Source of the DNA: Tribonema minus
Taxonomy: Eukaryota; Sar; Xanthophyceae; Tribonematales; Tribonemataceae
Assembly: GCA_017506865.1 (NCBI GenBank)
Contig: JAFCMP010000268.1
Span: 806,001 to 870,000, forward strand
Reading direction: 5' to 3'
DNA length: 64,000 nucleotides
Positions 11,042 through 51,044 of the stretch are shown here, in pieces. The stretch's first letter is position 1, and each line of letters begins with the position of its first letter. Position numbers and translations under genes: made by a program. The notes under the pieces are model-generated. The model saw only the letters and a program-made list of their open reading frames with translations, searched no databases and was not told the origin of the DNA.

Positions 11042-14000
11042 CTACCACCTATCAAAAGTAACACTTCGAAGCAATGAAGATGAACCTAAGGGGGAAAAAT
11101 GGAAATACATACTTCTGAAGTATACCATCTGTTTTTTCATGCAAGGAACTCGCCTGCGCTGAAACATGTACTCGTCCAGGGCATCCGGAGGCGTCACGCC
11201 GGGCCTGCCCGACAAAAATCGGTAGACGGGCGGTGGCAACTCTGCCATGCTGCGGTCCACGCGTGTACTGGCGTGAACTGCCGCCGCCGCCGTCGCGAGA
11301 GTGCGTACGACAAACGTCCGCTGCAGGGAGTGTGAAGCAGCAAAATGCCGGTCAGCACTAAGGAAGACATCGCCAGTACATATGAGTCCGCAGCAGAGCT
11401 CCATGTGCTGATTAGATGCCTATCTGCACTGACTGTGAAACAGGTACATAATAGCCACATACAAAATAATTGCTCATTGGGTCTGTTTTCCCACTGCTGT
11501 CATGTCAACTGTTAGGAAGAAGACGAAGATTATGGGATGTAGACCTCTCTAAGGCGCAACCTGAGATCGGGAGCCTTTTCAAGCTGCATTTAAATGCCAG
11601 CGAGCCTTTTTGAGTTTGGCGCGTGAACTCTGAGCACAGTAATCTCTCTTCATCTGGTCCGTGCCGTGATTGAAGGCGCGTAGCCTTCCTGCTGCCATGC
11701 TGTGCACAGGGGGCCGCGTTTAGTTTTGAGATCGAAGGCAAGTCACCACGAGACGCAGAGTAACATGAAGTAATATGTGGCGCGACTGCTGCCGCTTGGA
11801 GAACGCCAAAAATCAAATTTTGCGCCACTCATGGTCGGTAAGCGTCTCTCTGTGCTGTCCAGAGCTGTCTTGCGCATTTACTGAACGATCAGCGGCATGA
11901 GTGCTGCGGCAAACTGCTTCAAGGATCGTGAAAACCATCAATTTTACTATAGCTGAGTACAGCAGATCATATATGCATCAGTGTGTCTCAAAATTGTTGT
12001 TATTTTGGCCTGCAATGGGTGCAGATATGTGGGAAAAGAGCCTGCAGCATGCTTACATCACTGTAGTATAGATTACTGCATGGTGAGGAAGTAAGAGACA
12101 TGCAAAACAAGCAAGAAGATGCTCTTCCAGGTTGCTGTGTGACTGTGTACTGCAAATGTGACGCACCTCTTGGTCAGTAAGCGCCTGTCCGGCGCGGCCG
12201 AAAGGCGCCTTGTGCGTCTCTTCAATGATCAGCCGCATGAGTGCTACGGCTGCAGGGCCTAGCCCAGCTCCTGACTCATCCACCACAGGGAAGCCCCATA
12301 CCATTATTCCCCTGTCGAGACATTTGCAAAAAGGGCAAGAGAGTCCGTGATGTTGCAGTATGGAGGTACACGGAGGCTCAGTGGAGAATCGCGGAGCGAT
12401 GAAGCAGAATGGTCCAGCTATCAGCAAAAAAAAGTGACTGGGAAACTTCAAGGCCCAATTTCAAGGTCCAATCTTGTCCCCTGGGACTCCCCCTCTACAT
12501 ACCCCCATAAAGGGTCAAATAGGGGGAAGGGGAGGGGCCCAGGGGACAAGGTACAAAGGTCACCATGACGCCACATGCATGAAACAAAAGTGAGGTCAAA
12601 AGGGCATTCTTATTTGTGATGTAGGAAACCCGCAAGGCTGTTGAAGTTGATTTGAGGACTGCTGTGCGCTGCGAGACGTCACTCTCTGCGGAGCGCCGGG
12701 CCTGTGGGTCTTCTGCACGAGCGCAAGAACATGACACGCCACGGCCTGGCGCTCGACTGCAATGCACGCGGTGTATCACAGCCACAATGCGCAGCATAGC
12801 ACGGCATGTCGGACGTCAGGCAGCAGAGCGTCAGGCAGCAGTGCTCCTCACCGCACTCTCCCTCCGCTCAAGTAGAAGACGACACCTTTGCCGATGGGCG
12901 GGGCAACGCCGCCCCCCGGGGCGCGGGTGGTGGCGCGCATGAGCGCTGCCTTTTGCTGAGCACTACTACTGTTGCTGCCTTGCTGCTGAGCAGAGCTGCT
13001 GTAGTTGTCCTCGTCCTCCGTGTCCTCCAGCGCTGTGCGCACGCTGTCGTGCGCCGCTGCCGCTGTGGCAGCAAGGACAGGAATGCAGTGACAGCAGCTG
13101 ACAGCTTTAACTTTGCCTTGTACTGGTGTTGCAGGTTCCAGTGACAGCAACATGAGTTAGGAATGACAACGAGACTGCTTTTTGTGTTTAAACAAGATTT
13201 TGCATGCGAGTCATGGTCTGAGTCAATCTCTGAGTCCTGCTCTGAGTCATGCGCACGCTTGAGCAGGCACACGTTTTGCGTGAGCATTCTCTTTGCAACA
13301 AGAGTGCGGCCGCAGCGGCATTGCCTTAGCGCCCACGCTGGCGTTATTGGTTGCTTCACAGTGCAGCAGCACTTCAAAGGTACTGCATCACCACTGACGC
13401 CAAGAGAGCGCCGCCACTCGTGCCACAACTCTGCAAGTCTCCTACACGAGACATGTACGTGGCTAACAAGTGTGAAACGGGTGTTGCGCATGCAGACGCA
13501 CGCAGCTTTACTGGAGCCCGCACGCTGAATGTGCAGCAGTCAGGTACGCAGTTCATACACGTACGCAACATGATCGCAGACGCTCTCACTTTTTGCAATG
13601 TAGGAGCACGGCCCTCGTGCATACACAGTTGCATTACTACGAGTTACCTCATGCCCTAGGCTACTCAAAATCTACATACAAAGTACATGGAAATAATTGG
13701 ATGTTGTGAAATGGTTTTGTCGCACACCTCCGAGCTCATTCAGACATGCATTTTGTACCAAAAAAACTGCATCTGCACACGTACCCGCGCGGCCCAGAGC
13801 AGCATTGCTCCACCAGTACCCATACGTGTCGTGCGCCGCCGTGCAGTCCCCCACGAAAGCCACGTGCACGCCCGCGCGCGGCGCGCGCCCGGCAAACAGT
13901 GGCGCGCTCTCGTGGCGCCACGTGGCACCCCCCTGAGCGCTGCCGCCGCTGCCGCTGCCGCTGCCGACACTTCTGCCGCTGCCGCCGCTGCTGCCGCTGC

Positions 14001-17000
14001 CGCTGTGCTGCGCGCTGAGGGCCATGTTGGCGCCGGCGATGGCGCCGGTGGTGTGAGCAAAGTCGGCGCCGCGCAGGTGCGCGGCGCGGCCCAGCCTGCG
14101 GTGCGGAGCGCTGACGGCGTCCCCTGCCGCGTAAACCTTTGTCGTGTACAGGTATAAGAGGCAGACACAAGGGGTATACAACTGGGTCAGTGCCCTCGTC
14201 ATGTTATGCGTGGTCACATTTTGAATTTGTTTCATTCGGTGCAAGTGCCAATACAAAGTCGGCGCCGCGCAGGTGCGCAGCGCGGCCAAGCCTGCGGCGC
14301 GGAGCGCTGACGGCATCCCCTGTCGCGTACAGCTGTGCAATGTAGAAGTACACATTTGACTTACATGACACCTGTATAACGCCAGACACAAAGGGCATAT
14401 AAATGGGTGGGCAGCGCACACCTGTGTGATGTACAGGTATAAGAGCCAGAAACGGAGAGTATGGACATGGGTGGGTCAGTCAGTGCCGTGGGTCAGTCAG
14501 TGCCCTCGTCATGTCATGCGCGTTCAAACCTTGAATGATTTAACTGCTTTTAGCAGTGCAAGTCCAAATGAAAGGCATAAGTAGCCTGGTGTAGTTTGAT
14601 GGCAGCGACCCTCACTAGCACGATCACCTGCATACTGTCTCAAGGGCTTGCCGTCATGTATCAGATCAATGGTTTGGTCAAGCTCGGCTGGACACTGCAG
14701 AAAAAGTGGTGCAGAAAGATGCAATTGCACCGCTATACGTCACAAGAGCACTATACATGAGGGATATGTTCATTTGTGGAGACTGCTGACGTGGAAACTG
14801 CTGATGCAGCAGGTGTATCAAAAGCAACATACCAGCAGGACTCAGCACTGGTCTTATTGCTCTGTAGTGTTGGTTGGTGCTTGTGCTGCATGTAGGTGTT
14901 GATGCTGGTGATAAGGTTCGTGTGGTGCCGTCAGTGAGTGCTGCTGAATTCCCCACAAACTTCAAGAGAGACACAATTGGTACTCTAAAGTCTGCTTGTT
15001 TGTGGACACTTGTGCAAATGGTAGACACCGCATGCCAGGTTGTTCCTTCGATCGGCAGGTATTGGTGGGTCCAAGGATGTTCAAGGCCTGTAGACTAATG
15101 ACAGAGGCACTCATATGGCACACATATCTCCCATCACCGTGGGCATGCCCCAGGCGCCCTCAAATTCCTCAAAGAACACCTTATCAGTGCTGCAGCAGAG
15201 TCTCGTGTTGTCAAGCATGCATTCCACTGGAGGTGTACTCATATACTTCTAGACTCAAGGTGCACCCGTGACTTGCTGCACATTCAGTGTTGTTGTGTCT
15301 TGTCCAAGACTCCAGCATCACTGCAATCAAAGCTTCCCTGCTGATGGAACCGCGCGACCGTTGCGTTGCGTTGCGGCCGCGGGCGTTGAGGTGGTTGCGC
15401 TGGTGCAATTTCGTGCGCCGCACCCGGGCTCGCCGCATGAGACGCATGTGCAGAGTACCAGCTCGGGCTCCACGCCGTAGTAGGTGCCCTCGCCGGCTCG
15501 GTGGAGGTCCAAACACTCGGCGTTGATCGCCTGCATAGTATGCGACGAGCACTCACATTGGAGCTGGCCATCATCTCCTGGTTGACGGTGAGGGTGCCGC
15601 AGGGGCCAACTTCAAGTCCCGCCTGGGGGTCCTCTGCCCAGCGCTCAACGCGCTTGTCGCCCCTGGCCACCACGAGCAGATCAGCGTTGAAGGCGCATGT
15701 GTCCAGCGGGTCGTGCAGCCTGTGAACACAGTGCAGGTGATGATGCTCAGCGTGATGACGCTCGGCATGGCTGGGGTAGGTATGTACCTTAGAAAGAGGG
15801 CGGCCGCGTCCGGTCACTGCATCAGTACGCTGATCCAATAGATTGCGAAATCGCTGTGCTCTAGGCGCAAAGTGATGCCGAGTTTGAGCGGCAACATGGT
15901 GGTCGGGCGAGTATGTACCACCATCGGAAGATGGTGGCCGCATACAGTCGCGCCGCGTCAGTGTGCCAATCCGAGAAATCGTTGTGCTCTACATAGATGT
16001 GAAAATTTTCATGATAGAGTGGCAGCGTGCCCAGCAGACGCAGACGCTCACAGCACACTGCAGCCACATACGACCGGAACCACACCGATGCTGTCAGTGC
16101 TGGCCAGACCACGTGCTTCGCTTCAACGCGCCAGCTCCCTGTTCTACCTTATCGTGGTGAGCGCCGTCAGCTTCACGGAGCACACTGCTGTTCTCGCGCA
16201 GTTTCCTACATGTGCAGACCGTGCGGCCCTTCAAGGGTACCCGCTGGGGCCCGCCGCTCGCTGGTTTCAAGGTCACTGTGAAACTCACGCGCAACCTCAC
16301 AGCCATGCCGCTGTGCGCTCACTGATTCAGCTCGCTAGCGCCGCAACCTGCGGTTGCGATATTGGGCAGCACCATCACCAAGCTCTCTCCGCGCTCGGAG
16401 TTCATTGGGCACCTACCTGCATGTGTAGACCCTGACGCCCTTTGAGGGTGCCCCCTGGGGCCCCCCGCTCGCGCTCTCGGGCGCGTACTCGCGGCCGGCG
16501 CTCACGTAGCGCAGCGCGCTGTGGCTCGTGACGTTGATGCCCAGGCGCCGCAGCCGTTTCACCAGGGCAGTGCTCAGCTGCGCACATCACGGGGTTGCGT
16601 GGGAAGATGTAGCGTTATGATGAGGCGTTTGTGTGCAGCCACCGCATTTATATACACACTCACAGAGGCAAGGGCCAGAGCCAAGGTGAGAAGGTTGAGT
16701 AAGAGGCGTTGGTGCCCAGAGGTGGTGTGCCCATCTCCAAAAGTTGGAGCCAGCGCTAGAGTTGCACTACAGTTAAGAAAGGTGAGGAAGCAAGTATAGC
16801 ACTCAACATCGAACTCCTGCTACTGTAGTACCCATTGTATCATGGCAGTGCACACTAGCGCAGGGCTCCGCTTCACGGGCCAGGGCCAAGGCTGGGGTTA
16901 GCAAATGTGGGGCAAGCAGGTTGCGAATCGCACTGGCCAGGTGCAACATGGGTCACAGCGCTGCCTAAACTTAAGCTTAGCGACAGTAGCGTTGCAGCGC

Positions 17001-20000
17001 AACTGTCTCAGCAGCTTCTCCGCAGCAGTGTCCAGACACTTGGGTTAGGCTTGCAGCAAGGATAAAGCATTTGCAGCGAGGGTCGACATGAGTCAGCACA
17101 CAAGCAGGGCTATTTTTATTCCGTGCTCCCGCAGCCAGCGATGGCTGCAGTTTGACTTGGGTACTGCGGTGCAGCCAAGGCAGAGCGGTGTTCGAATTTC
17201 CCAGCTTCTGAAAGAGTGAATCCAGGGGTTGATGAAAACATCAACTTCAACTTCAACTTGTGGCTCTCCCTCTTCTCTACGCAGGTTGGCGGTGTGTCGC
17301 GTGCCGTCAAGCTTGGCGCGCAACTCCTTGCAACAAGCAACTGCAGCAATGTTTCACCTGCGCCCAGTGCGCAAATGGGTTGCAGGTGTTGGCACAATGG
17401 ACAGTGCCATGCGGTGACGGTGCTGTTAAAAAGCCTGCATCGTTTGTAGAATCTTTTGGATTAAATGCTGGTCAAGTACCATCCAGTGAAAAGAAGTTGG
17501 CATTGCATCCTTTAAGCCCTACAGTAGGTTCGCGCAAGCACGGCCAGAGGCACAGAGTGTGCTGATCATACATGGCATGATAATACTCATGTACTCAACA
17601 GAACATGATGCTCACAAAGCATGATCATAGTCTTGTGCGCACATAGTGCGCAGTATGATTATTCGCATAGCATGATGTTACTCACATAGCGTGGCAGCAG
17701 GTTGTCCAGCGGCCCGTATCCTGCACAGACCATGCTGATCTGCCCTGTGTGATGCTGTGAGGGGGAGGGGGCAGGGGGGGGGGGAGCGCAGATAGTCACA
17801 TGATGGATCAAGCTTTAAAATTTCAACAAAAAAACTTGGAAGCACATGGTACTTGGTGGAAGTGGCTGTGAGGCTCGGTGTACACGGGACAGAAAAGTGC
17901 GCTTCGCCGATACGTTGCAGCATGCGGAGGCGATTAAAAAATTTGCTGGCGTGCTATCACAAGGCAATCCGCCAACAGCCGACAGTGCTCTCGTTATTTT
18001 GCGCTGTGCTTGATTTGCGTATGCGCACATCGTCTGTGCCTTGTCACTATGCGCAACAGCACCTGCGCGACAGAAGCGAGGTGTACAAAGCCGCATCAGA
18101 GCGGCTCACTGCAGGTGAAAATCGCTGCTACGAGACGCAGCAAACCACTACAGTGATAGGGTTTGAAATAGGGTTGAGGTTAGGGTTAGGAGTAGCGTGC
18201 CGTGGATGAATCCACGTGCGGTGGATGACCAGCATGTGCAGTCGGATGACCTTGGTAACTCCTGTCCTCACCGCGGGTGAATGCTCGCTGCGCGTGTCTA
18301 TGCTTCCTGCATACGCCACCAAGTGCTGAGTTCCGCAGCAGATACTTCAAAGAGCATGCTGAGCACTGAGGTAGCTCCTGACGAGCGGCGCAGCAGCTGA
18401 CTGCACATGCGGGGCAACCTGAACTTGCCTTTGACCCACTGCTGTCATCCGGTCCAGCAGCCTGCACTTGCATGGGGCGAGGCAGGATGTGGCAGCAGCG
18501 GCGGCAGCAGCAGCAGTAGCAGCAGCAGCAGCAACAGCAGCAACTGGAACATCAGCGCAAATCGTCATGGCAGTCACAATTCATGGCCAGTGTTCATCAC
18601 ACCATGAGCTGCTGGCCACCAAATTCATACCGATGGACTTGAACGTTACGAGCATAGCAGACCCTTACCCTCAATATGACCCTTAGCATCCTTCTGAAGT
18701 AGTTCTGCCTCGTGTAGCGGCTCGAGCCAACGATTGCCCAGTTCTACTGCATGCGTGCCGAGCAGTGATCCACGCCTGCATCATGCAGTGTTTGAAGATT
18801 GCCGTAACAAGCGTCACACACCCCTTCGCATCGTGGATGCGAAATTCAACTTCACCCCGCCAAAGGAAATGATCACCCTTTGCAGGATTTAATGAAGTCC
18901 TCCTGCCCGCTTCCCCAGAACTATGTGAAAAGCGTTCTGACGTACACTGCGTTTCGAAGCGGGCAGCGGGGAGGTTGAAACCTACTAGTTTTGAGACACA
19001 GCCTGCGCAGATTCACTTCCTCTTTTGTGCGGCTGGTGTGCAGCCTTCTCGGCTTTCTTGCAGCTTGGTGTACATGCAACAAAAGGGCGGCGCCACACCG
19101 TTGCAAGGCAGTTTGAGGGGAAACGCAGGCATTTAAAGATGCCGACTGCAATACTCACGCCTGCCGCTGAACATGACCAAACAGCTGCTAGTTTACCTAC
19201 AGCGCGTGGCACACTTGCCTGAAGTGGCAATCTTGAGCGGCTGACGACGGCAGAAGCTACGTCCGCGGACTGTTGACGATAACAATGGCAACTTCTATTT
19301 GCGCAAATCGCATGGCGCACCTGCCTCATACTGTTTCAAATCAATGTCACTTGGTTTGCATCTTGAACCGTTGAAGACGGCCTGAGAAACTTCAAATTGC
19401 ATTGAGCGAAGTGGCGCACCTGTCGCAAGTGGCACGCCAGCTCCAGCGCCTCCCACCCGCTGCCCAAGATGACGACGCTCCCCCCTTTGCGCACGCGCCA
19501 CATGGCAGCCTCACACGCTTCTGAGCCGTGCAACGGCAGCACGCTACCCGCCGCGGCGGGGTCCACGTAACCGTCGGGCAGCGGTTCCGGGGGCGCTCCT
19601 GTCGCCACGAGGCACCGCTCAAAGCCGATGACCTGTGTGCAGTCCACAACATGCGGTACATGGCAGTCAACGCCGAGTACTTTAATTGGCACTGATTTGA
19701 TACCAGAGTGGCGGCGTGTGTCAGCATCTTTGTATGGGTCATGATGGTCAGGGGGAGCGGAGCAGAAGCGCATCGGCAGCAGCTGCGACGGTGCGTCCCT
19801 GCAACGGTGCGCACAATGGTCTGCAGAACGGTCTGCAGAACGGTTCAGGAGTGGTGCTGAAGGCGAGCTGGTCGCCGCAAGGCGCTTCTGTACTTCCAAA
19901 GTTCCTCAGGTATACACTTTTGCAGGAATTCCGACGACAGCAACGTCTTGGCACATTCACCGCAGCAGCCCGCGTGTTGTGTGCGCGTGATCACTAGCGA

Positions 20001-23111: not shown

Positions 23112-23492
23112 GCAGCAGCACCAGCGTACACAGATCTCGAGTTGAGTCAGGAAAAAGGGCGGTTCCCGTGGACTGGGCCCGAGAACTGGCTTGCCGCAGT
23201 GCTCAGCACAGTTCCGTGCTCTGCACGACGCTGCACATGCTGTAGCGCTCAACTCAGTGCGGTGCCTGAAAACGCGCTGCAACAGCGGCGGCGGCGGCGC
23301 CTTGAAGCGCTGGAGACGCCCGGCTGCGCGACAGCTGGTGGCGCCGTCGCACGAGGCAGCTGGCGCGGTTATCGTTCAATGTACTTTTTATTAATTCTCG
23401 CTCAGGGCGCGAAAAAGCCCAGATGATTGGCATCTAGCTGTAAGGAATCTACATGTCGTATGACAGTCTGAAAGTGTCGCAACGACAACCAC

Positions 23493-24476
23493 TCAAACGC
23501 CGCCGCCGCCAAATGGCATCTTGGGGTCCTCCCCTACGTCCTCCTCCATGTGCCCCCCCCCCCTGGATTCTGCCATGTGTGTCATGACACGGCCAGAGTA
23601 CGCCATGTGGAGCGCTGCCGACAGTGCCGAGCGTAAGCGCGCCAGGGCGATGCCCTTGAGAGCTTTAGGGCGCGCTCCTCCGGGCACTGACATCTTGCTG
23701 GCATACTCCGTCGCCACAGCCTCCAGCAGCTTCCGCCCCTGCTCCCCGATGCTGCCAAATGACCCTGTTGCCAAAGTGGCAAGTTTGTAGCAATTCTGAT
23801 CATAATGACCAGAATAGTGGGTAGTCTTGGCGGCCTCTTGGTCGCGGCAGCATCGCTCGGGATCTGCTGCAGTCTTCGCCGCCCGCGACGCCACCTGTGC
23901 CTCGAAGCAGGTAACGTCCACCATGAGCGGTAGGTGGCGTGTCGGGTCGTCGTAGCCGGTCACCGGGAAGGCGTCGGCAGGCAGCACGATGTCCATCCTG
24001 CGACTCCCCGGCGGCCCGGCGGACCCCAGAAACGGCGTGTAGTCCTCGTCCACCAGTCCCGGTTTGAGGTATTGCCGCAGGATGCGCTGCGTGGCCCTCT
24101 TGACGCTATTGTGGACGATGGTGTCGTGCGCCTTGACGCATGGCGCTTGACACAGCCGTGCATGCAGGGTGCCGCCCGGCAACTTCCCGCACAGCTTGCA
24201 GCGTGCCGTCTGCTCCTCTACTCCGATGGCGCGTTTGACGGCCAGCTGTTGCTGCACGTAGGGATGCGGCAGCTGTGGCGATCGTCCGCATGAGGGGCAG
24301 GCGCGCCACCTCTGCTGCTGCTGCGCCTTGTAGCATTGCTGGTGTGGAACGCGCAGCGCCTGCATTGACGGCTGCCGCTGCTGCGTGCGCTGGTGCTGCA
24401 GCTGCGCCGCCTGCCGTTGCTGCTGCTGCCAGCGGTGTTGCTGCTGCCGCTGGTGTTGGTGCAGCACCTGCCGCAT
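23493..24476 (-). pseudogene. Element B: zinc knuckles and restriction-like endonuclease
   Basis: The first ~50 residues are Gln/His-rich, a shifted reading of the Ala repeats. From about 24310 the frame is meaningful: CPSCGRS, then CKLCGKLPGGTLHARLC (a CCHC knuckle, about 24210-24160), then a PD-(D/E)xK-like domain with RRMDIVLP (about 24003) and PLMVDVTCFEAQ (about 23925). A Lys follows in TKHYS-like context (AKTTHYSGHY), then FGSIGEQGRKLLE (about 23755). This is the same order as in element A and matches RLE-bearing LINEs. The stop is at 23493-23495. Confidence 0.8.
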
Positions 24477-27111: not shown

Positions 27112-27662
27112 TGCTGCGACTGCGGGGGTTGAGATAGTCCACGTGAAAAGCCCACCTGCCCCACCTGCTGCGCCTGCAGGCGCTGCCGCTGCTGCCGCCG
27201 CACCTGCCGCTCGGGGGCCCCCTCCGCCGCCGCCGCGGCCGCCGCACCACAGCCTCGTCCACCGCTGTCGCTGCTGCGACCGCTGCCACGGCCACCGCGG
27301 CCGTTTTGAGTTCGCGCGCCACTGCCGCTGTTGCTAGCACCGCCGCTGCGGGTGCTGGCATCACTGCTGCGGCCGTTGCCAGCGCCGCTGTCCTTAGTAC
27401 CGGCTGCACTGCCGCCGCCGGCACCGCTGCTGCTGCCGCCTCCAGTTCTGCTGCCGCTAGTCGCTCTGCTACTGCTGATGTCTGCATCATTGCTGCCGCT
27501 GCGAACGCGTCCTCCATTGCCACGTCCGCGCCCTCCACTGCAACCCCGACCCCCTCGTGTAGCACTGCTGCCCCCGCGTTCCGGCCTCGTTGAGCTGCCG
27601 GAGGAGCTGCTGCCACCAGCCTGAGCAGCAGGTGCCTGCTGCGCGTACTTCAGTTCATGCAC

Positions 27663-40500: not shown

Positions 40501-43500
40501 TGCTGCATGGGACTAGTCATGCACGGCGGTGCTCTCCTCCTGTCGCTTGCTGCCGCAGCGTGCGGGCGCTTCACGCTACAGTCGCAGCGCCTTTGTGCAC
40601 ATCCAGTACCTCTTGTGCTGTTGCCGCCGTTTCTACACGCAGGCTGTGGCGTGGCGTCTCGATGGAACATCAGTAATAAGTGGCACAAGTACAGCCTGAC
40701 CCGTTTCAACTGCCTTGCTCGCTGTCAATGAAAATCAGTCGTACAATCGGTACTGTTGCATTCTCTGACGTTCTGTAACTGTGACTTTCTGTAACTGCCC
40801 TGCTCGCTGCCTCAGCGCGCCGGGCTCACGGAGGTCTTCAAGGTATACCTATTTGCGCGCTGCATACCTACCTTCACGGACGTGCTGCGCGACTCCAGCA
40901 GCGGCATCAGCGACGAGGAGGCGACTCTCCTAGAGGAGAAGTTCGCCGGCAAGTTCCACAGTCTCAGCCACAGGGTGAGTTTTGTCGTGGTTGATGCGCT
41001 TTTGCGGAGCCTACGCGTTAGGGGTATGCTGGGGTAGGTATAGTCTGATGCAATACATACCCACCCCTAAGGAGGTGCTGCGTGACTTCAGCAGCGGCTT
41101 CAGTGCCGACGGTGGTGACTTTGCCGGGGAGAAGTTATTGGCAAGCTCAACTGTCTGAGCCAGCGTGTGAGCCTGTGATTTTTATGTGTTTTTGCAGGGC
41201 CAGCATTGCGCGCAGGTCGCCACTAAGGGCGGTAGGTATGGTACGATGCAGTACATACCAATATTGCCATGGTCTCTACTTCCAGGGACCCGCACAGCGT
41301 TGTCAGCGATGCCAAAGCAGCGCAACTGGGCTGTACTCAGAAGTACAATTGTGTGCATCCAGCCAGAGGGTCAGGCATGGGATATGTACATTGTCATGCA
41401 AACATACCGATCCTTGTTTGTCAGGCGCTGCGCAAATACATAGCCCCGTCAAACAATTTCACAGCAGCAAAGCCCGAAGAACAGACGCTGGCCACTGAAT
41501 TCCGCGTTTCTAACCAGCGGCTAAGGCTCGCGTTTGAGTGCATGGCTGTGCACTGGCGCCAGGGGACTAGCCTCTGTTGTAGGGTCCAGGGTAGGTATGG
41601 TCGGCTTAACATATACAGTACCTACTTTTGCAGAGGCGTTGGGCGTGACCCTGGCAGCGCCGGCCGGCGGTCGCCAATTTGCTGCGCGAGGACACCCCAA
41701 AGTCAGGTAGATACATTGGCCGGAGCTTACTTACATTTGGCGCTGGCGTGGCGCCTGCGCTGTGCTTGACGGTGCAGCCCTTTGGTATAGTACTCAACGA
41801 GCATCTGCAACGCTCTTGGCGATGTGAGCTTCCGCTGCGCTCGTCTGACAGTAGGCGCGCCATGCGCTGGTTTGCAGGGCCCGGAGGGCATTCTTGTGTA
41901 CTGGGCAGGTACGTATTGAAGTATAAGTCAGGCTGGCGCGACGCACGCACTGTGTAAAGGGCGAAGCCGGCAAGCTTGGCGGCCTCGGCGAACATGACAC
42001 TTCATTGCCTGCCCGCATTTTGGCTAAAATGATCAGAATGGTTCAGCAACTCTTACCATGTGTAGCATGTGCGTTATCATGTCTGGCGAGTGTGTCAATT
42101 CACCGGGTGGACAAGGCATTCACTATGCATGTGTGTGAGACATGACCCTGCACACACTGCGTGCGCGTGCTGCCGCAGTTTGAGCGGTTCCAGGAACTGG
42201 TGGAGAACGTTCTTGACCTGGAACGGCTGCCTGACCTCAGCATCAATCCCACGTACAGCCCAGAGCTGGCGGAGTTAAAGGAGCTCATGGACGAGGTAAC
42301 CCTAGACCTATTTACCACGCTGTCACCACTGTCGCTGTAGTCTGAACTGCTCAAAGAAGCATGTCACATGGTGTGTTGGCATCAGTGACAGGCTTGACTC
42401 TTGCGTAATTGGCACCCTTTCCATGCATGTCAATCTGCTGTTTTGATTAAGCGCAATCATGTTCCTGCAAATGTTGTACTCTGCTGCGTGAAGCTGCAAT
42501 GCGTGCCATCACCGGGCGAGGATGAACGAGGCTGTCAGTATAGTGCACCCAGCGTTTGTGGTACAACATGTATGCAGGGATCAGCGTGTTTGCTGCATCG
42601 CTGTTGGGGGCAAGGTTACGGTTAATGATCGTGAAGCAGGGGTAGGGGTAGGCGGGTACGTAGGCATGGCTGCCTAACTGCACAGGACTTGAGTGGACTG
42701 AACGCTCTCATACGCATGAGTCATGAGTCATGAGGTGTCAGTCTTTATCAGAACACTGCCACCAGGACACCGGCTACTGCCTTTGGTCTTGTAGCCCGCG
42801 GCATGTCGATTCAGACTTTTCTTCATGCTTCCGTGCGGGTGTGCACGCGCCTTATCTGCAGGTGAAAGCTGAGGTGGACGAGATATATCTGGATGCGCGT
42901 GACGGCTGGTGCGACTTTGACAAGGTGACTCTCCACTTTCTACTGTTTAGGAACTTGGACAAGGTGACTCTCCGCTTTCTACTGTTAGAACTTCGACAAG
43001 GTGACTCGCATTGTCTGCTAATTGGGGATTTCATTACAAGCACGGTTATGTGTGGCACGTGAATCCAGGATTGCTTCAGCATCGCATGCCATTAACATGT
43101 TAGTTACTGCAAATACCGCTTCAGGGTATTGTGTTCACCGGTACCCTTCTGGCTGGGTGATTGACTTCGGCATTGCCTTGCGTAGTACTGGTACTGGTAC
43201 TGTGCGTGCACGCGCCTGCTTGTGTACCAAACACTAGCTTGTGCTTGCTTTTGTAAACCCTGTTTGTACTCTTGTGTACCCGCTTCAAGTGCTCAGCACC
43301 AGCGTCAGCGTCGGCAGGCACCTGCCGCGTGGACAAATATATCTGCAGCAGCCCATTCCACAAGCTCAATTGCTTCCTGCAGCGAGCGTGTGTCGCCAGG
43401 CATTGTTCTTGCGATTGATTGCTGCCCCCTGCAAGCGTGTGTGGCCAGGCAATGCTCATGCGACTGTTTCCCCTGCACTCTGGCTGTTGGCCTGTTGACT

Positions 43501-46500
43501 GTGTGACAGGACAAGTGCCTGCTGGAGCCCGACAAGCAGCGCGGCTTTGTGCTCAGGCTCACCAAGGTATGCTGTTTTTGTTGTTGTTTGTCCTTGTTTT
43601 TGCTCAAATGTATGTTCTAGTTGTTCTCTGAAATGAGGACTGGTGCTACATGATGCTGGCAGTTGAATATTCAACTGATGAAGTTGTAGCAGAAGTGGCC
43701 CTATGAAAGAGCATCGTTCCACAGTATGCGGGTACGCAATCGATTGCTTGCCTTTGCTCGCGTGCCCACATGCGTTCGCACCACGCAGCAGCGACCTGCC
43801 ACCAATGCACGGCCCCCTTGTGCACAGCAGACAGACCCCTCCTTGCCAGGGGCTTGACCACTGCTGCTAGTGACCTCAATGCCGCCCCTCTTGTCCAACC
43901 CTAATTCAAACCTAGAACCCACTTCAAGTTGAAGTGCAGTGGTGGATACTGACACCGGCGACGTCACTGCACCTCGCCCACTTGAGATTCCATTAAACTG
44001 CAGTATGATGAAGCATGTGCATGGGCAATTCGCGAGAAGATTTGAAGCGCCCACCTGCCGCGTTGCTGGCTGCAGCACTAGACTGCCGCTGCTGACTAGA
44101 TTTGCTCACTCTCCCTGACAACAATGTGCGGGGAACCTAGAGGAGGGTATTTGCGCCTCGCTTACTGCAGTGCTCAGCTGCAGTTACTCACCAGTGTTTG
44201 TCCACCCTCCCTGCCAGCATGCGGAAACCTTGAAGGAGGGCATGTATGCACGCGATTCCCGCGTTGCTCAATGCAAGGAAACCTAGAGGAGGGTATGTAC
44301 GTGCCCGTGGCTTACTGCAGTGCTCAGCTGCAGTTGCTCACAAAAAACATATCTGACCCACTGCCCACTGATGCTGCGCAGGCAAACCTCGAGAAGGACC
44401 TGAAGAACCGCAATTCGCGTGCTGAGACCATCAGCGTGCTCAAGAACGGCGTGCACTTCACCACGCCGCAGCTGAGGGACGCGGGCAAGCGCTACATCGC
44501 TCTCAAGGTGCGTACGTGCTTCGTGTACTTCTTGGAGTACTTGTTGTACTTCAAGTATTCCGTGCACTGGTTGAAGTATGGGAGTTCTTGATGATTCGGT
44601 GTTGCGGAACTCCGCCGTTGACTGTCCCTGTTTCTCGTGAAGCAGGAGGGACCGGCTGCCTCAAACATGTACATGCCGGTGCCAAAGCACAAGAGGGTAG
44701 GGGTAGGACGAGGATCAGTAGGAAGGTTAGGTTTAGGGTCAGGGGTAGGGTGGGTGTCAACGTCAGTATGTGTTTCCAGAGTCCGAACGATGCCACACTC
44801 AGTGAGCACTGCTGTCATTCGCACGAGAACTACTGGGGGTCGGGCTTAGCACCAACCAAATACTTTAGAAGAAATGTGTTTTTGTTCATTATAGTATGAG
44901 CGATGCCACTCTAAAGTATTACCAAGTAAGGTGCTTGTGTGTGATAATCTGAGCGATGCCGTGCCGACAGAGCGCTGACGCCCCTCCATGCGCACGCGCT
45001 GCGCAGCAAGAGTACGAGAAGCAGCAAGAGGAGCTGGTCGGCAAGGCCGTGGCTACTGCTGCTACCTACCTACCCCTGATGCGACACTGACTGAGCACTG
45101 TTGTCAATTGCTTGAGAAGACGTGAAATTTGCTTAGAATGAGATTTTGATTAGAATGTCATCTCAATACGGTGTTTTCTTGTTATGATCTAATGCCACGC
45201 TGCCGCCGCTCTGCATGCGCACCGCGCAGCAAGAGTACGAGAAGCAGCAAGAAGAGCTGGTCGGCAAGGCTGTGGAGACCGCGGCTACCTACCTACCCCT
45301 GATGGAGTCGGCCTGCAACGTCGTGGCAGAGCTCGACGTCCTGGTCGCGCTCGCGCACACGGCGGCCATGGCCCCGGAGCAGTACGTGCGGCCGAAGCTG
45401 CTCGATGCGGTGAGTATAATGCCCTTTGTTCAAAACATTAAAACAAAACATTTTGAAGAACTACTTATGTTACACTACATCTGCTGCTGTATTGCGCTGA
45501 CGAAGTGTATGGAGCCTTGCACGTTGAAGCTTTGCATCTTCAGGGAGTTGGTGCGGCATGTTGTGCTGTTGCCGTATGCACTTCGTGATATGCTCAGAAG
45601 CTGCATGTCCTGAAGCTTTGCATAGTTCAGGAGCAAGCAATATTGGCGAGGATACCTTTACGTCATGAAAAGTGACTGCAGGTTCATCTGTTAGGAACAC
45701 TTGTAGAGAAGAGGAGTCACCCAACGAGGCCAGCCTGCTACTTGGTCAGGTAGCGGAGCTGTATCTTTTTATTGCGTGCGCACTTGCCTCCGTCACCATG
45801 TCTCACCATCATCTTCATTTCTGTCATGTATAAGTGTCCGGTTTGTTGAACATTTTCAAGGGGCAGAACAGCACTCAAATCGCAGACGCTTCAACCGTCA
45901 CAACTACTGCGTTTCTACTTAAGGAGCACATGCCTTCTCCACTGAGCCGGCCCACTGATCATCAGCCTCTGGCTCTCAAATCATCGCGTGCTTCCTGCTC
46001 AGCATGCACACATCGTGCCGCTTGACTAGCCATTGCGAGTGCGAATGCTGTGTCAGTTGCTGCGTGTCCCATTCACGCCTCGAAATTGCGGAATATTCAG
46101 TACGCTTGTAGCATATATGTGCATACTGACTGAGCGCTGCTGCGGTGCATGCGTGTGCAATGCTTTCATCACCGATTGCGGTCTATGCGGTGCGCGCGTA
46201 GCGCATGTATGTACACCGACTGAGCGCTGCTGCGGTGCACGCTTGCGCACTGCTTCCATCGCCGATTGCAGTATATTCGGTGCACGCATAGCGTACGTAT
46301 GCATGTATATATATATATGCATATATATATGTACTGACTGAGCGCTGCTGCAATGCATATGCTTGTGCAGGGGTCCGGCGTGCTGGACGTTCAGGGCGCT
46401 CGCCACCCGTGCCTCGAGGTCAGTGCTCATCAGGCTGACTGCGTGCGGAACTTGAAGTGCAGCCCAGCCCTAGTGTGTCAGCTGATTTACTGCAGCGGCA

Positions 46501-49500
46501 GTTGATTGTCTCTGTCTGCTGACCTTATGGCGCAGCACACTGTGGACCGTCGAGTGCGTCAGCATTTCACAAGATCAGGAGAGCAGCGCCTTAGTTATTT
46601 GGCTCTATACGTTTTCATGATTGTGACTGATTAGGTCCCTTCAAGGCCAGAGACACAGACAAATGAGAAGGGCTCGACCCAACCAAGCCGTGCAAGTGTT
46701 TCAAACACCATGTTCAAACGCTCCCTTCATATATGTTCTTCATTTGTAAAGTGGCAGGAGGATGAGCTTCATGCCCAACAGTAGCGCGCTGAAGCGAGAC
46801 AAGACCCCAGTAACACAGGCCAGGATTTTCCAACTTTCTTGAAGCGCAACTTCAAGCGCTGGCTCTCCGACTTTTCTCATCCACGCAGTGGCAGGAGGAC
46901 ATGAGCTTCGTGCCCAACAGCTACACGATGCGGCCAGACAAGACCTCAGTAACACAGACTATGGTCCAAGTTTTGGTACAACGCTACTTCAAGCGCTGAC
47001 TCTCTGAGTATGTTCCTCATCCGCGCAGTGGCAGGAGGACATGAGCTTCATGCCCAACAGCTACGCCATGAAGCGCGACAAGGGCCGGTTCCTGGTTGTC
47101 ACCGGACCCAACATGGGCGGCAAGTCTACGTACATCCGCACGCTGGGGTCCATCGTCGTCATGGCTCAGATGGGCTCCTTCGTGCCTGCGGCTAGCGCCG
47201 AGATCAGGTGCGGTTACGCCATGAAACCGCTGAAAGCGCTATGGTTTGTTCGTTCGGGAACCGCTCAGAGTGCTGCGAGTGGCGGCTTCTGCAGGCTAGC
47301 CCTGACTCTTGACCCCAACCCTATCATGTGTAGTTGCCCCAGTGTGTATATGTGATGCAGATGCAGGCAGATTTCTCTCAGAGGTTTGTTCAGAGGTGAA
47401 ATGCAGGTGCTCACAACTCAGCGGCACCTTGACACATGATGGGCAACTATAGTCCACACGGTATTGGCAGCGCTCAACGTTGTGACTTAGTACTCGTGAA
47501 CTGTAATGATGGTGCCCTCAGCCTCTGCTCATGCTGCAGGGGCATGCCCCTCCTGTCTGCAGGACATGTCGCCATTTTGGATTGATTCGGCATACATTCA
47601 TACATACAAAGGCACATGCACAGAGGTCAACGCGAGACAGCGCATGACCATGCCAACGCATGCGCACCGCCGCTGCAGCATCATATGCACTCTTTACGAG
47701 GAGTGTGATGCGTGTTATCACTTGATACATTTGAGAATGAAAGCGATTCGAGGTGCCAACAAATGTGCTGAGCGCGTCAGCTGTTGCAGACCCCCAATTT
47801 CTCTCTCTGTGGGACAGCACGTCGCTTTCACCACTTGAGGCGAAACCGAGACCGCTGCTGCAGCATTGTGGAAGTTCAGGGTTAGGGTTAGGCAAGACAT
47901 TGCTTGAACACATAAGGCTCTATAGCTGTGAAGCGTTTCTGCTCGTGCTGCCAGGGTATGCGCCTCTACTGAAGGACGTGCATGTGAAGCAACCCCAGGC
48001 GCTCTCCGTGACTGCTATAGCATTGCACACACACTGCCAATACTGGGGACGCGCTCTTTGCACACTTCAACATACCACTCCAACTCTTGCAAGGCCTTGA
48101 CGCAGCTAGGTCTCCGCTCGCGCTCGTGCTGCAAGTGGGATTCCTTAGTCTATCACACTTGCACATGAAGCAACCCGATGCACACATTCCTGACCACCGT
48201 GCCACCGCACACACACACACTGCCGCTGCAGCATTCTGGATGCGCTCTTTGAAGTACCAGGGTGAGGATTAGGATTCGGGCTAGGGTAAGGGTCAGGACG
48301 TGTGAAGCAATTTCAGGCACGTTTCCTGATTCCAATTACCGTTGCAAAACATCACGCCGCTGCAGCATCGTGGATGCGCTCTTTTGCGCACTTCAACATA
48401 CCACTTGAACTTTATCTCTTGTTAGGCTCTATGTAGCTAGGTCGCCGCTCGCGCTCGCGCTGCAAGCGGGTTAACCTGTTCGATAACACTCGCACGTGTA
48501 GCAACCGAGAGTACATTCCTAACTGCGATACCATTGCAAAACACAACGCCGCTGCAGCATCGTGGATGCGCTCTTTGCGCGCGTGGGCGCTGGTGATGCT
48601 CAGCAGCGCGGCGTCTCCACCTTCATGGCGGAGATGCTCGAGGCGAGCGCCATTTTGGACGCTGCCACCGACAAGTGAGTCCCAATCAGCAAATTTGTGC
48701 CTGGTGCCAGCCACATGTAGAATTGTCTTGCACTGGCTGGCTGTGTTTCAGGGTTAGGGTTACGGTGAGGGTTAGTGTTGTTGGGTTAGCGGAGTGCATG
48801 CACATGCATGTTTACTCTGAAAGTATATATGCGAATACTTGCCATGGTGGAGGTGCTCTGGGCGAGCACCATCTGGACGCTGCCACCGGCAAGTGAATAC
48901 TCTGTGGCGCGCATGTGTGCCTGATCTCGCCCTCAGGTCACATTGCATTTAAAAAGCTGTGTTCAACTGCGCAATGCTGCTGACTAGGGTATGCCCCCAT
49001 ACAGGTTTGTGTATGTATAGGGCATTGTATGCATGTATGTACAGTGTACATGAGTCATCAGGCAAGCTGTTGCCTGATTACTGCCGCTCGCGGCCCTTGC
49101 AAATTGCTGATCATCATTGACAAAAACACACCTGAGCGGTGCTGCGCAGTACCTGCTGCAGGTCGTTGATCATCATCTACGGCCTAGCCAGCGGCACATA
49201 TAGAAGTATACCCCTCTTGTGCAGCCGGATGTGTAGTTCCGTGGATATAATGGGATATGTCAGCAAGAGCAGATTACTTCAATTGTTGACTAATTGGTAC
49301 ACGTCGACAACGTTGGGCACACACTTGCAGCAGCGCTTCCATGTACCGGTCATCGGTGATGCCTGAGCCATGCCACGCATTGCTGCCGCAGATCGCTGAT
49401 CATCATCGACGAGCTGGGACGCGGCACGAGTACGTTTGACGGTTTCGGACTGGCCTGGGCCATAAGCGAGTACCTGGTGCAGGAGGTCAAGGCCTTCACG

Positions 49501-51044
49501 CTCTTTGCCACTCACTTCCACGAGGTACGCGCGCACAGTTGAAAAAGCAACTTGCAGATTGCTGTTGTTTCGGCACTCATTTCTTCGATGCTCACGCAGC
49601 TTGCACGTGCAACTTTGTACGTCCAACCATGCATAACCTCATGGTCGTGGTAGTGGAACTTCAGCACAGTCCTTGATGCGTGCTGCTAGCCCAGTACCGA
49701 GAAGATGGAATGGGGACGTCATTGTCATTCATGTCATTTGTTTTCTGTCATGTGTTCTTGTGACCTGTACGTCGACAAGGTCTGGCATGCAGCTCTTGAT
49801 CAGGCCGCACATCAACTTTGCAACGCATCTGCTGTGCACTGCGCCAGGCGCGGCCAGTCAAATGTACGCTTCAAGCAAAAGCATTCAGCTGCCTACCGAG
49901 TAATCACAGCATGCTGTTGAGACGCTTGTCCTTGAAATGGAACCTGCACAGCTGTAGTGAGACGCTTGTCCTTGAAGTGGAACCTGCACAGCTGTAGTAG
50001 CGTATGCAAGTGGATGGGATCATTCGCAATGCAATTGTCTAAGGCGTGGGCGCTAATATGTACATGCCGCATGACTCTGTAACAGCAGGAGTAGATGTGG
50101 ACTTGTGTACCAAGAGCCCTGCAGCACTGAGATTTTACATCACTACCACACGCGCCCTCATGACCTGCCTCTTGTATGATCTACAAAGCGCACTGCTCAC
50201 ACCGACGATTTCATGTTTGATTTGCCGGTTTTCTTTCTGTTCATCGGTTAGATGACGACATTAGCGGACACCGAGCCCTGTGTGGAGAACTGGCACGTCT
50301 CAGCTGAAGTTGGCAGCGACAAGATCACCATGCTGTACCAGGTCCAGCCGGGGCCATGCCTGCAGTCCTTCGGCATTCACGTCGCGGCCATGGCGGGTGA
50401 GAAGCTTGCTATGACACCCTTTGTGGAAGGAACTTAACCTAATGTAGCTGAATGTCATGCGGTCGTGCTGAATCTGCCAGAGGGTGCTCTCCGTCTCTCG
50501 CCTGCCTGCACTACAATGTTGGTATTGCACGTGCCACACGGAACATAGATTTTGGAATGCACGGGATGGGGCGCAAAGTTCGAGATGCCATAATCACACC
50601 ATGTACTGCATAGAGGTGCTCTGCGCTCTCGCGCACTTCAACAAGCGTCGAGCCCTGCGCCTGAAGCACCAGTAAGCCTCATGCCGCAGCACACATCTCT
50701 GTGCGCAAGGTGTCAGGGTGCTCGGGAATCGTCAGCGCCTTCTGCCAGCAACTGACTTCAGCATGTCGATTGCATTTCCAGGCTTCCCCAGTAGCGTCAT
50801 ACGCGAGGCCAAGCGCAAGGCGGCAGCGCTCGAGAGCTTTGAGACCGCTATGGAGGCGATGCAGACAGGCGACGCGAACTTCAAGTCTGGCACGGCTCAG
50901 CACGACAACAAGCGCCTCCGCAAGCTGGGTGAACTGTTCTGCGCGCTGCCGGTGGGGACACTCGGCGCTGCGGAGACCATCGCGGCGGTGCGAGAGCTGG
51001 TGGATAAGGTGTACATTGGGAATGGCGCTGCCGCTGCGCAGTGA
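34596..51044 (+). CDS. MSH2: MSH2, MutS-family DNA mismatch repair ATPase
   Basis: Eukaryotic MutS homologue that pairs with MSH6 or MSH3 to bind mismatches in the nucleus. Exons: 34596-34895, 35982-36077, 37012-37121, 38578-38698, 38925-39034, 40131-40203, 40816-40974, 42179-42295, 42862-42924, 43510-43566, 44382-44507, 45230-45409, 46371-46418, 47029-47207, 48558-48674, 49392-49524, 50252-50396, 50782-51044. They sum to 2397 bases (798 residues), all in phase with GT-AG borders. Landmarks: connector-domain [17 protein letters not shown] (exon 1); lever start [12 protein letters not shown] (exon 5); clamp [11 protein letters not shown] (exon 11); [15 protein letters not shown] (exon 12); ARHPCLE (exon 13); Walker [11 protein letters not shown] (545-554); STFMAEM (600-606); Walker [13 protein letters not shown] (Asp625-Glu626); FATHFHE; and QSFGIHVA. 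The DELGRGTST and FGIHVA forms are those of MSH2. The protein is about 130 residues shorter than usual MSH2 because the mismatch-binding domain I is absent before exon 1. The ATG at 34596 sits in a good context (GCACCATG). Confidence 0.96.
36068..36370 (+). repeat. Copies of MSH2 exon 2 donor edge
   Basis: The exon end CTGGCTCAGGTGATGCACCG (about 36069) recurs as CTGGCTCAGGTGATTCGCCG (about 36159) and in weaker form near 36327 (TCGCTCAAGTGAGACACTC). Intron words (AGCGTGCACCTGCACTACGC and AGCATGCGCTTGCACCAGGC) are carried along. The acceptor side also has a copy at about 35817-35850 (GCAGCTGAAAATGGTCAAGG). Confidence 0.88.
37090..37445 (+). repeat. Triplicated MSH2 exon 3 donor edge
   Basis: The end of exon 3, GGGTCGTACCGTGTTGTGCA plus GGGCAG and donor GTATGT, recurs twice more with donors at 37289 and 37429 (real donor at 37122). 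Spacing is 167 and 140 bp. The copies differ by only a few bases over about 40, and all three donors are identical over GGCAGGTATGTATGC. They are strong potential decoy donors. Confidence 0.95.
37697..37840 (+). repeat. Dispersed repeat R, copy 1
   Basis: About 145 bases match the reverse complement of 59655-59807 closely (I estimate close to 90% from reading). Both can be read as [19 protein letters not shown]. Here it lies in MSH2 intron 3; the other copy lies in an intron of the secreted-protein gene in opposite orientation. It is probably a piece of an unrecognised mobile element. Confidence 0.85.
38054..38640 (+). repeat. Four tandem copies of MSH2 exon 4 acceptor edge
   Basis: The acceptor and first ~60 bases of exon 4 (GGCAGCCTGGAGCAGTATGT, encoding [17 protein letters not shown]) occur with acceptor GCAG at 38054, 38223, 38405 and 38574; the last is real. 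Spacing is 169, 182 and 169 bp. The copies keep the reading frame of this segment, then diverge where the real exon continues into LPDPAFPG. The unit includes upstream intron (CATTGTGAGGACATGTTGCT). Confidence 0.95.
38949..39540 (+). repeat. MSH2 exon 5: near-intact duplicate and decaying shorter copies
   Basis: Bases 38949-39034 of exon 5 recur at 39071-39156 with 78 of 86 identical by my count. There is no stop codon and the donor is kept (CTCAGGTGTGTGG). Shorter echoes of the terminal GGCTCAGCAGCGCTCAGGTG follow near 39215, 39288, 39325, 39389 and 39472, with growing divergence. The duplicate starts right after TTGAAG, which could serve as an acceptor, so inclusion or mutually exclusive use cannot be excluded by sequence. 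Confidence 0.93.
40050..40345 (+). repeat. Interstitial telomere-like (TTAGGG)n tracts
   Basis: Short runs of CCCTAA (about 40050-40066) and TTAGGG (about 40211-40228, 40267-40285, 40321-40342) flank exon 6 of MSH2, with degenerate units between. Similar two- to three-unit tracts occur at 18176-18190, 38757-38770, 47879-47893 and 48752-48766. They all lie in introns. Confidence 0.88.
41068..41175 (+). repeat. Copy of MSH2 exon 7 donor half
   Basis: GTGCTGCGTGACTTCAGCAG here matches GTGCTGCGCGACTCCAGCAG of exon 7, and the end TGTCTGAGCCAGCGTGTGAG matches AGTCTCAGCCACAGGGTGAG including the donor. The copy carries indels and a stop. Confidence 0.9.
42915..43010 (+). repeat. Triplicated MSH2 exon 9 donor
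   Basis: The donor word GACAAGGTGACTCTCC recurs three times at spacing of about 36-38 bp (GACAAG at 42919, about 42957 and about 42994), each followed by ACTTTCTACTGTT-like sequence. This is the shortest-period exon-edge array in the window and leaves three nearly equal GT sites within 80 bases. Confidence 0.93.
44128..44400 (+). repeat. Copies of MSH2 exon 11 acceptor edge
   Basis: Forms of GGGAACCTAGAGGAGGGTAT at about 44130, 44220 and 44276 resemble the exon start GCAAACCTCGAGAAGGACCT at 44382. A companion word CTTACTGCAGTGCTCAGCTG repeats with them. The second and third copies are close to each other; similarity to the exon itself is weaker. Confidence 0.7.
45007..45081 (+). repeat. Near-intact duplicate of MSH2 exon 12 start
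   Basis: Seventy-five bases at 45007-45081 match 45230-45304 at 69 of 75 positions, including the GCGCAG acceptor before them. The copy reads [20 protein letters not shown] and has no stop within the match. The real exon continues with [12 protein letters not shown]; the copy runs into intron. Confidence 0.93.
46127..46370 (+). repeat. Repeats before MSH2 exon 13 acceptor, with AT microsatellite
   Basis: The word ACTGAGCGCTGCTGCGGTGC, part of the intron leading to exon 13, occurs at about 46130, 46213 and 46336. An (AT)n stretch, palindromic around ATATATATGCATATATATAT, sits at about 46304-46330 and would be prone to extrude a hairpin. Confidence 0.85.
46752..47090 (+). repeat. Three copies of MSH2 exon 14 acceptor edge
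   Basis: GTGGCAGGAGGACATGAGCT (real exon start 47029, encoding [18 protein letters not shown]) is repeated at about 46752-46805 and 46887-46965. The middle copy keeps the CGCAG acceptor and the coding frame for about 18 codons. All three share AACAGC or TAGC-CGATG words. Downstream text of the two extra copies (ACACAGACTATGG-like) is also shared. Confidence 0.93.
47669..48674 (+). repeat. Repeated MSH2 exon 15 acceptor edges
   Basis: GCCGCTGCAGCATCGTGGAT, the acceptor and start of exon 15 (real acceptor at 48556-48557), recurs near 47669, 47853, 48222 and 48357. The 48357 copy is identical over about 25 bases. A donor-side echo lies at about 48846-48895 (GAGCACCATCTGGACGCTGC then GGCAAGTGAA). 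Exon 15 therefore has copies of both its edges. Confidence 0.92.
49091..49440 (+). repeat. Copies of MSH2 exon 16 acceptor edge (Walker B exon)
   Basis: The exon start ATCGCTGATCATCATCGACG (49392) is echoed at about 49157-49200 (GGTCGTTGATCATCATCTAC, then GGCCTAGCCAGCGGCAC, matching GAGCTGGGACGCGGCAC) and more weakly near 49100. It is the Walker B segment that is duplicated; the copy has lost the Asp-Glu pair. Confidence 0.88.
49918..49997 (+). repeat. 40-bp perfect-register tandem duplication
   Basis: Two adjacent 40-base units (TGAGACGCTTGTCCTTGAAA at 49918 and TGAGACGCTTGTCCTTGAAG at 49958) differ at one position. They lie in MSH2 intron 16 and are not derived from an exon edge. Confidence 0.95.

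Follow-up and report, generated by a model that had tools for sequence, protein, structure and literature searches.

The lengthening of introns without transposons is poorly explained, and the question is raised in concrete form by a stretch of contig C268 of Tribonema minus, a xanthophyte of the PX clade of Ochrophyta whose genome is assembled as 158 Mb in 554 contigs. Why do introns of three genes in this stretch, coding for MSH2, an endonuclease-III-like glycosylase (NTH) and an AIF-like oxidoreductase, carry tandem copies of the edge of the neighboring exon, complete with splice site? An earlier note, made from the sequence alone, had reported such copies at 18 or more exon borders and had taken them to reflect introns that grow by repeated duplication across splice borders. 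We analysed the whole stretch (positions 806001-870000 of the contig, 64,000 nucleotides, hereafter the window) together with genes from other contigs. The results favor, with a probability of roughly 0.68, the reading that these introns grew through repeated local tandem duplication at or beside exon-intron borders, with a preference for the exon edge, and that this growth was tolerated by virtue of exon definition. Border-focused duplication of this kind would offer a concrete and testable route for intron lengthening.

The gene models on which the tests in the window are based are these:

34596 to 51044, plus strand: MSH2 gene, an 18-exon model with GT-AG introns and an open frame of 798 amino acids
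34596-34895, 35982-36077, 37012-37121, 38578-38698, 38925-39034 and 40131-40203, plus strand: MSH2 exons 1-6
40816-40974, 42179-42295, 42862-42924, 43510-43566, 44382-44507 and 45230-45409, plus strand: MSH2 exons 7-12
46371-46418, 47029-47207, 48558-48674, 49392-49524, 50252-50396 and 50782-51044, plus strand: MSH2 exons 13-18
28488 to 34219, minus strand: NTH gene, six exons, matching the Pfam domain HhH-GPD (E 4e-12)
11172 to 21594, minus strand: AIF-like oxidoreductase, a partial seven-exon model from the gene finder, whose spliced translation matches the Pfam domain Pyr_redox_2 (E 7e-13)
21411-21594, 19420-19632, 16417-16577, 15557-15719, 13785-14135, 12167-12249 and 11172-11320, minus strand: exons of the AIF-like gene

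The MSH2 model shares 96% identity with P0001, the protein annotated in Tribonema minus, and has the same exons, except for exon 2, which is absent from P0001; we kept this exon because its counterpart is visible by eye in P0003 and in the Ectocarpus protein P0005. The first exon of NTH, with its GC donor, is uncertain, and the border tests leave it out; the start of the AIF exon 13785-14135 was placed by eye. Across the genes examined the median exon is 164 bp and the median intron 836 bp, and the GC fraction is 0.700 in exons, 0.569 at intron edges and 0.566 in intron interiors. A scan of the window against Rfam gave no match.

Comparison of the window with itself by BLAST returned 84 pairs of direct repeats separated by less than 4 kb, mostly between 11.8 and 49.4 kb; this search gave no repeat spaced below 57 bp, and Tandem Repeats Finder (TRF) was used for shorter units. 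For individual borders, a probe of 50 bp of exon edge was aligned to the adjacent intron, with exon ends sought downstream and exon starts upstream, and scored against a null drawn from the introns of other genes. At p<=0.01, 17 of the 54 borders of the three window genes bear significant copies, where about 0.5 would be expected (MSH2 10/34, NTH 3/8, AIF 4/12); another threshold gives 9/34, 3/8 and 4/12, respectively. The earlier count of at least 18 affected borders was thus about right, as was its range of one to eight copies per border, the upper end of which is found downstream of the AIF exon ending at 21411 on the minus strand. The individual arrays and copies are:

20249 to 21456, minus strand: AIF donor-side array of exon 21411-21594, eight copies of the exon end and donor, with GT kept in six of the eight
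14254 to 14536, minus strand: AIF acceptor-side copies upstream of exon 13785-14135, found by self-BLAST and border alignment
16205 to 16261, minus strand: AIF, a copy of the donor-side end of exon 16417-16577, found by self-BLAST and border alignment
11814 to 11910, minus strand: AIF, an old copy of the donor-side end of exon 12167-12249, 71% identical
32318 to 32690, minus strand: NTH array on the donor side of exon 32785-32905; its copies lie 165, 316 and 440 bp away and match the exon at identities of 0.83, 0.75 and 0.72
30408 to 30744, minus strand: NTH donor-side copies of exon 31522-31685, found by self-BLAST and border alignment
29376 to 29447, minus strand: NTH donor-side copy of exon 29485-29647, found by self-BLAST and border alignment
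35815 to 35848, plus strand: MSH2 exon 2, acceptor-side copy
37091 to 37557, plus strand: MSH2 exon 3, donor-side array of two copies that both retain CAG|GTATGT
37876 to 38646, plus strand: MSH2 exon 4, acceptor-side array of four upstream copies with AG in all, found by TRF and self-BLAST
38948 to 39194, plus strand: MSH2 exon 5, a tandem duplication on the donor side with a 122-bp unit and 88% identity, found by TRF and self-BLAST
41056 to 41171, plus strand: MSH2 exon 7, donor-side copy
44973 to 45081, plus strand: MSH2 exon 12, acceptor-side copy, also found by a genome-wide protein search (C268, 850977-851102)
46732 to 47008, plus strand: MSH2 exon 14, acceptor-side array of two copies, found by TRF and self-BLAST
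47665 to 48557, plus strand: MSH2 exon 15, four acceptor-side copies
48843 to 48896, plus strand: MSH2 exon 15, donor-side copy
49131 to 49197, plus strand: MSH2 exon 16, acceptor-side copy

The right end of the window had been described as free of such copies. This broadly holds, as the region from 51 to 61.7 kb is without any BLAST pair, though not to the very end, where a 71-bp repeat occupies 63855-64000 and a weak pair (E 0.99) lies at 61762 and 62532; TRF reports short repeats at 59153, 59880 and 62503. The second of these (59880-60010) is a 48-bp tandem repeat of 2.7 copies and differs from the intron arrays in being part of an open reading frame.

When the probes were extended to 14 genes, 33 of 184 borders passed p<=0.01 as against 8 of 268 control probes, the controls being exon ends compared with the upstream intron (1/64), exon starts with the downstream intron (5/64), exon ends with the next intron (1/78) and exon middles (1/62). 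In a set of 16 genes the direct probes exceeded the null at 38 of 216 borders and their reverse complements at 4 of 216, i.e. inverted copies are at background level. Both donor and acceptor sides are affected, as the earlier note had it, with donors in the lead: 22/92 versus 11/92 in the 14 genes (p 0.054), and 26/108 versus 12/108 (p 0.019) and 29/80 versus 13/80 (p 0.007) in overlapping gene sets.

Anchored alignment of 66 copies showed that the duplicated unit extends beyond the exon. Its intron part is homologous at z>2 in 51 of the 66, with mean identity above the null over 130 bp, which indicates that the duplicated segments, arranged head to tail, mostly comprised exon and intron together. 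That the copies are exon fragments without intron is thereby rejected for most of them, 15 of the 66 falling short of z>2. Successive copies are spaced at a median of 146 bp (middle half 122-169; 53 of the 66 spacings in the range of 100-200 bp), and the units overlap the exon by a median of 57 bp at the 32 of 42 borders with usable alignment. At 13 of the 16 multi-copy borders the nearest copy is closer in sequence to the exon than the farthest one, in exon and intron parts alike, so that the decay with distance claimed earlier is borne out as a trend. Among the copies of the edge of MSH2 exon 4, one shows 97% identity at a distance of two units, implying that two-unit duplications occur too. 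The junctions of the duplications have themselves decayed. Intron homology in most copies, their head-to-tail order and the locality of three arrays (see below) together uphold the proposal of intron growth by repeated tandem duplication across borders, for which slippage, unequal exchange and fork error are all candidate routes.

The decoy splice sites envisaged by the earlier note exist, an intact GT or AG being present in 48 of the 66 copies. About 49 would be expected from the identity of the exon part, and hence the decoys are neither retained nor purged to a detectable degree; a conserved decoy function is rejected, as GT/AG retention equals the neutral expectation. This bears on the possibility that the duplications originate evenly and are retained selectively near exons, where the copies would serve as buffers, U1-binding decoys or splicing regulators. 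The strong donors that many copies keep, six of the eight at the AIF exon among them, and the approximately 2:1 preponderance of donors over acceptors, would fit such a scheme, but given the neutral retention of the splice cores and the frame-breaking nature of 134 of the 153 indels in the copies we consider it quite unlikely.

The same indels bear on the idea that the copies act as partial exons of the alternative or mutually exclusive kind. Some copies are open, and several were called exons by our gene finder (e.g. 7179-7253 of L023, a MutS paralogue on another contig). Nevertheless, we reject this idea, because the indels in the copies break the frame, and regard it as very improbable. Differences between copy and exon are 0.121, 0.137 and 0.204 by codon position, about what neutral copying together with synonymous change in the exon would produce, and along with the indels this fits a copy that drifts neutrally beside an exon that changes slowly; furthermore, P0001 contains none of the MSH2 copies. 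As a separate observation, a gene finder sees exons in recent exon-edge copies (L023, 7179-7253 and 2691-2822). Gene annotation could accordingly be misled, and public gene models of Tribonema minus may include false exons or skip true ones (compare P0001, which is without MSH2 exon 2).

Are the units local, or were they brought in from elsewhere? A genome search with 20289-21456 (the AIF array) found no match elsewhere, and neither did a single query that covered the MSH2 exon 4 array from 38001 together with the exon 5 duplication; locality is thus based on three arrays in two queries, no other array having been queried alone. With the MSH2 protein as query, 23 of 34 matches fell on C268, all of them at MSH2, and the remaining 11 on five other contigs, among which C10 and C554 bear MutS genes. 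Mobile introner-like elements or other transposons that carry the units would be a precedented source, since introners are known from algae (PMC9860276). Yet the units stem from the adjacent exon, and the only dispersed sequence found is a separate element of 245 bp, so that we give this origin next to no probability. For the three queried arrays, which match only themselves, a mobile-element origin is rejected.

The dispersed 245-bp element lies at 37590 to 37836 on the plus strand in MSH2 intron 3, outside the arrays, and has 91-94% matches on many contigs (the best 40 of 2546 candidates scored). A minus-strand frame at 59571-60110 resembles, by eye, a frame at this element.

An assembly artefact deserves mention, as tandem arrays are readily misassembled. 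Here most copies differ from each other by approximately 5-30%, with indels, and the same pattern recurs on independent contigs; the chance that misassembly created it is negligible.

The most substantial challenge to a preference for exon edges comes from detection, because a conserved exon keeps border copies recognizable for longer than copies deep in an intron. Ordinary tandem duplication might hit introns and borders evenly, with the exon merely preserving the border arrays as recognizable, and this would account for the polarity, decay and contiguity of the copies and for their non-coding character. We therefore ran simulations on real exons in which tandem duplication was uniform and the sequences underwent neutral decay, indels and deletions, under several rate settings. 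The location tests were made on nine genes picked for bearing arrays, to which seven others were added later to give all 16. When the border data are taken alone the simulation comes near to them: in the nine-gene calibration it yielded 33-43 positive borders out of 160 versus 41/160 in the real genes, and an identity of the intron part of 0.693 versus 0.694 at matched exon identity. In one early simulation the real and simulated border tests drew on a common null pool that included the same gene, and both border counts were low as a result.

Location within the introns separates the two. In the nine genes 37 arrays lie at borders; of those confined to introns, 8 are no more than 60 bp from an edge and 5 are deeper. 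Twelve simulations gave 21-42, 2-11 and 39-60, respectively. Over all 16 genes the three classes number 37, 8 and 9, as opposed to 26-35, 6-16 and 44-58 in eight simulations. These comparisons were made with the exons unmasked; with exons masked, a position near the edge (within 60 bp) is held by 24 of 34 arrays in the nine genes, or by 23 of the 33 in assignable intron against 7.4 expected, with none of 100,000 random placements as extreme. Masking in the 16 genes leaves 23 of 37 arrays <=60 bp from an exon edge where 7.6 are expected, and 0 of 200,000 draws were as extreme. The excess is present in the curated genes (10/15 near versus 3.7 expected, P 3e-4) as well as in the automatic models (13/22 versus 3.8 expected). 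This is a relevant division, in that the three window genes were possibly noticed through the border placement of their arrays, while the automatic models, though built by the gene finder of this same analysis, were chosen by array content and not by array place. Unit size in the nine genes gives a further contrast: 11 of 13 TRF arrays with units >=80 bp are near edges (4.6 expected) as against 8 of 21 with units of 20-65 bp (4.3 expected, four in-exon arrays excluded), a difference with a Fisher p of 0.013. Larger deletions do not rescue the uniform simulation, the near-edge share rising only to 0.30-0.40. Turnover of intron interiors by repeat insertion is also unlikely, because when 6.8 kb of gene sequence was queried the matches listed elsewhere in the genome were limited to the 245-bp element and approximately 150 bp of telomere-like repeat (two of the genome queries over gene sequence had 40 candidates scored each). 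Hence we judge even duplication on its own to be unlikely, and the concentration at edges exceeds what detection bias and uniform duplication produce.

A number of observations weigh against growth by edge-preferential duplication, and the age of the arrays is foremost among them. Only 2 of 38 exon-masked arrays have >=90% identity, as opposed to 13-23 of 70-82 in the simulations, and both of these, which are the two youngest, lie deep in introns on C180 and C5, in genes without border copies, as even duplication would have it; in the nine genes the count is 0 of 31 versus 25% simulated. The edge process may therefore have slowed or be past, a current hot spot at edges being unsupported by young arrays, or else young copies may be under-represented for some other reason. 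The calibration departs from the real data in overall intron identity (0.712 simulated, 0.682 real) and in gaps per bp (0.018 simulated, 0.011 real). Small-unit arrays have a mild edge excess too, and the four exon-masked arrays of the seven added genes are all deep. The mean fraction of the unit that overlaps the exon, at the same 32 of 42 borders, is 0.46 as against 0.56 under uniform simulation, and this shorter overlap may reflect selection instead of a hot spot. Single runs at the lowest rate gave border-to-intron counts of 5:11, 9:1, 9:13 and 4:6, the second of which resembles an edge preference at a total far below the real one. A purely local DNA process does not predict the roughly twofold donor excess; an advantage of the first transcribed site, if there is one, would make acceptor copies the more harmful, a candidate reason for the imbalance. 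Finally, the spread among genes is uneven, with seven of the 16 totalling 1 positive border of 56, and MutS paralogue L022 on C10 has 0 of 16 positive borders (2/16 at p<=0.01 in the other test).

Similar copies do occur in genes elsewhere in the genome. We sampled 14 stretches from other contigs (402 bp-10 kb) irrespective of content and scanned the 13 of >=2 kb; L005, L008 and L009 contain 10-13 repeat pairs each and the others 0-3, except for a satellite in L014. The flanks of these three stretches were added after their repeats had been seen, and the border frequencies of the 14-gene set are consequently biased upward. L023, picked by homology, has 8 of 30 borders at p<=0.01 in its uncorrected gene-finder model, and 9 of 16 after 7 of its 16 predicted exons, copy-like or doubtful, are dropped; the end of its Walker-B exon occurs three times in succession. 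A genome search for Cpn60/TCP1 gave 73 matches; sorted by eye, they form 10 loci, with a single weak match left over. At 4 of the 10 loci, five borders bear a total of seven partial copies of the exon edge, all on the side expected, and three of these precede the exon at 22346 of C51. A protein search of this type detects only well-kept copies.

Growth by edge-preferential duplication would proceed as follows. A segment of approximately 95-230 bp (median 146) that straddles or adjoins an exon-intron border would be duplicated in tandem such that the true exon remains untouched and a copy of the exon edge, the splice site and flanking intron lands on the intron side, where it would subsequently decay as neutral DNA. 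The duplications would either have arisen preferentially at exon edges or have been preferentially retained there. Tolerance would come about through exon definition, with the splicing machinery using the outermost sites, the pair with the shortest distance across the exon, and ignoring the inner decoys. Exon definition is the simplest reason for tolerance because the true sites are the closest pair across the exon, and exons of 164 bp between introns of 836 bp make it the probable mode of recognition; use of the outermost sites is itself predicted from protein homology, which tempers the proposal. As to cause, the unit of about one nucleosome and the step in GC from 0.70 to 0.57 suggest, as a leading but speculative guess, errors of replication or repair on the scale of nucleosomes or Okazaki fragments, set by the chromatin or GC step.

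A more far-reaching and rather doubtful version would have borders as present or past hot spots for nucleosome-length tandem duplication, from which introns grow outward like a conveyor, older units being pushed inward as they decay and exon definition hiding the growth from selection, so that much intron sequence might be fossil exon edges. Such fossils could serve as a clock for intron age, and the arrays would constitute natural series of duplicated splice sites of equal strength for studying how the spliceosome chooses the outermost.

How does this relate to known systems? The closest precedent is a single tandem duplication over an intron-exon boundary in the potato RdRp gene (Ma, Lan and Niu 2016, PMC4974935). 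There the duplication spans the end of an intron and the start of the next exon and inherits the splice signals of the parent border, much as here; in that one gene, however, the copy became a new intron and exon, whereas the Tribonema minus copies are serial, affect both border types in several genes and apparently stay as decoys within introns. Tandem duplication is also an accepted route of intron gain (PMC3443670, PMC2891723). The AGGT form of that model, as presented there, likewise alters intron structure by local tandem duplication, but through exonic sequence whose duplication places a new intron between two proto-splice sites. In Tribonema minus the introns already present become longer, with no new one apparent: within MSH2, the gene examined for this, no intron was found between duplicated proto-splice sites, the copies being intronic and the exons joining in frame, collinear with P0001. 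Gao and Lynch, in 2009, reportedly found internal gene duplication accompanied by intron creation, with some duplications affecting splice sites; serial arrays of exon edges and their concentration at edges are not known from that work. Intronic minisatellites resemble our arrays in being head-to-tail and intronic, and differ in that here the units of approximately 146 bp straddle or adjoin borders and are placed unlike the short-unit arrays of the same genes. Introners (PMC9860276) similarly supply bulk intron sequence in algae with a chromatin bias, but are dispersed and make new introns, unlike the local, border-derived units tested here.

The earlier statement that no standard model predicts the pattern consequently stands in part. 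Boundary duplication has been published and tandem duplication is a standard means of intron gain; what uniform duplication with selection fails to give is the concentration at edges. Tandem duplication across a splice border is therefore a known type of event, whereas its location at edges is unexplained by a uniform model. Among the open-licence papers listed by literature searches, no title or abstract opening mentions edge-concentrated arrays, and serial decoy arrays with such a placement are likewise absent from the passages cited above. The excess at exon edges in the genes examined suggests a seemingly undescribed route of intron growth.

Some other elements were seen. Two long open frames, 3564-6652 on the plus strand and 24106-27333 on the minus strand, look by eye like retroelements of the reverse-transcriptase type. 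TTAGGG-like interstitial clusters occur at 40204-40352, 38757, 40050, 47878, 48750, 32261, 32567 and 18180 and at other loci. Intron (94 kb) holds 21 of them, sequence outside the models (117 kb) 14 and exon (30 kb) 1, where random intron-like sequence would hold 0.7 per 100 kb. We considered such repeats as a sign of break repair and set this aside, since they are common yet not specific to introns. When 40204-43509 was used as query, its telomere-like part found matches close to where contigs C423, C3 and C537 begin.

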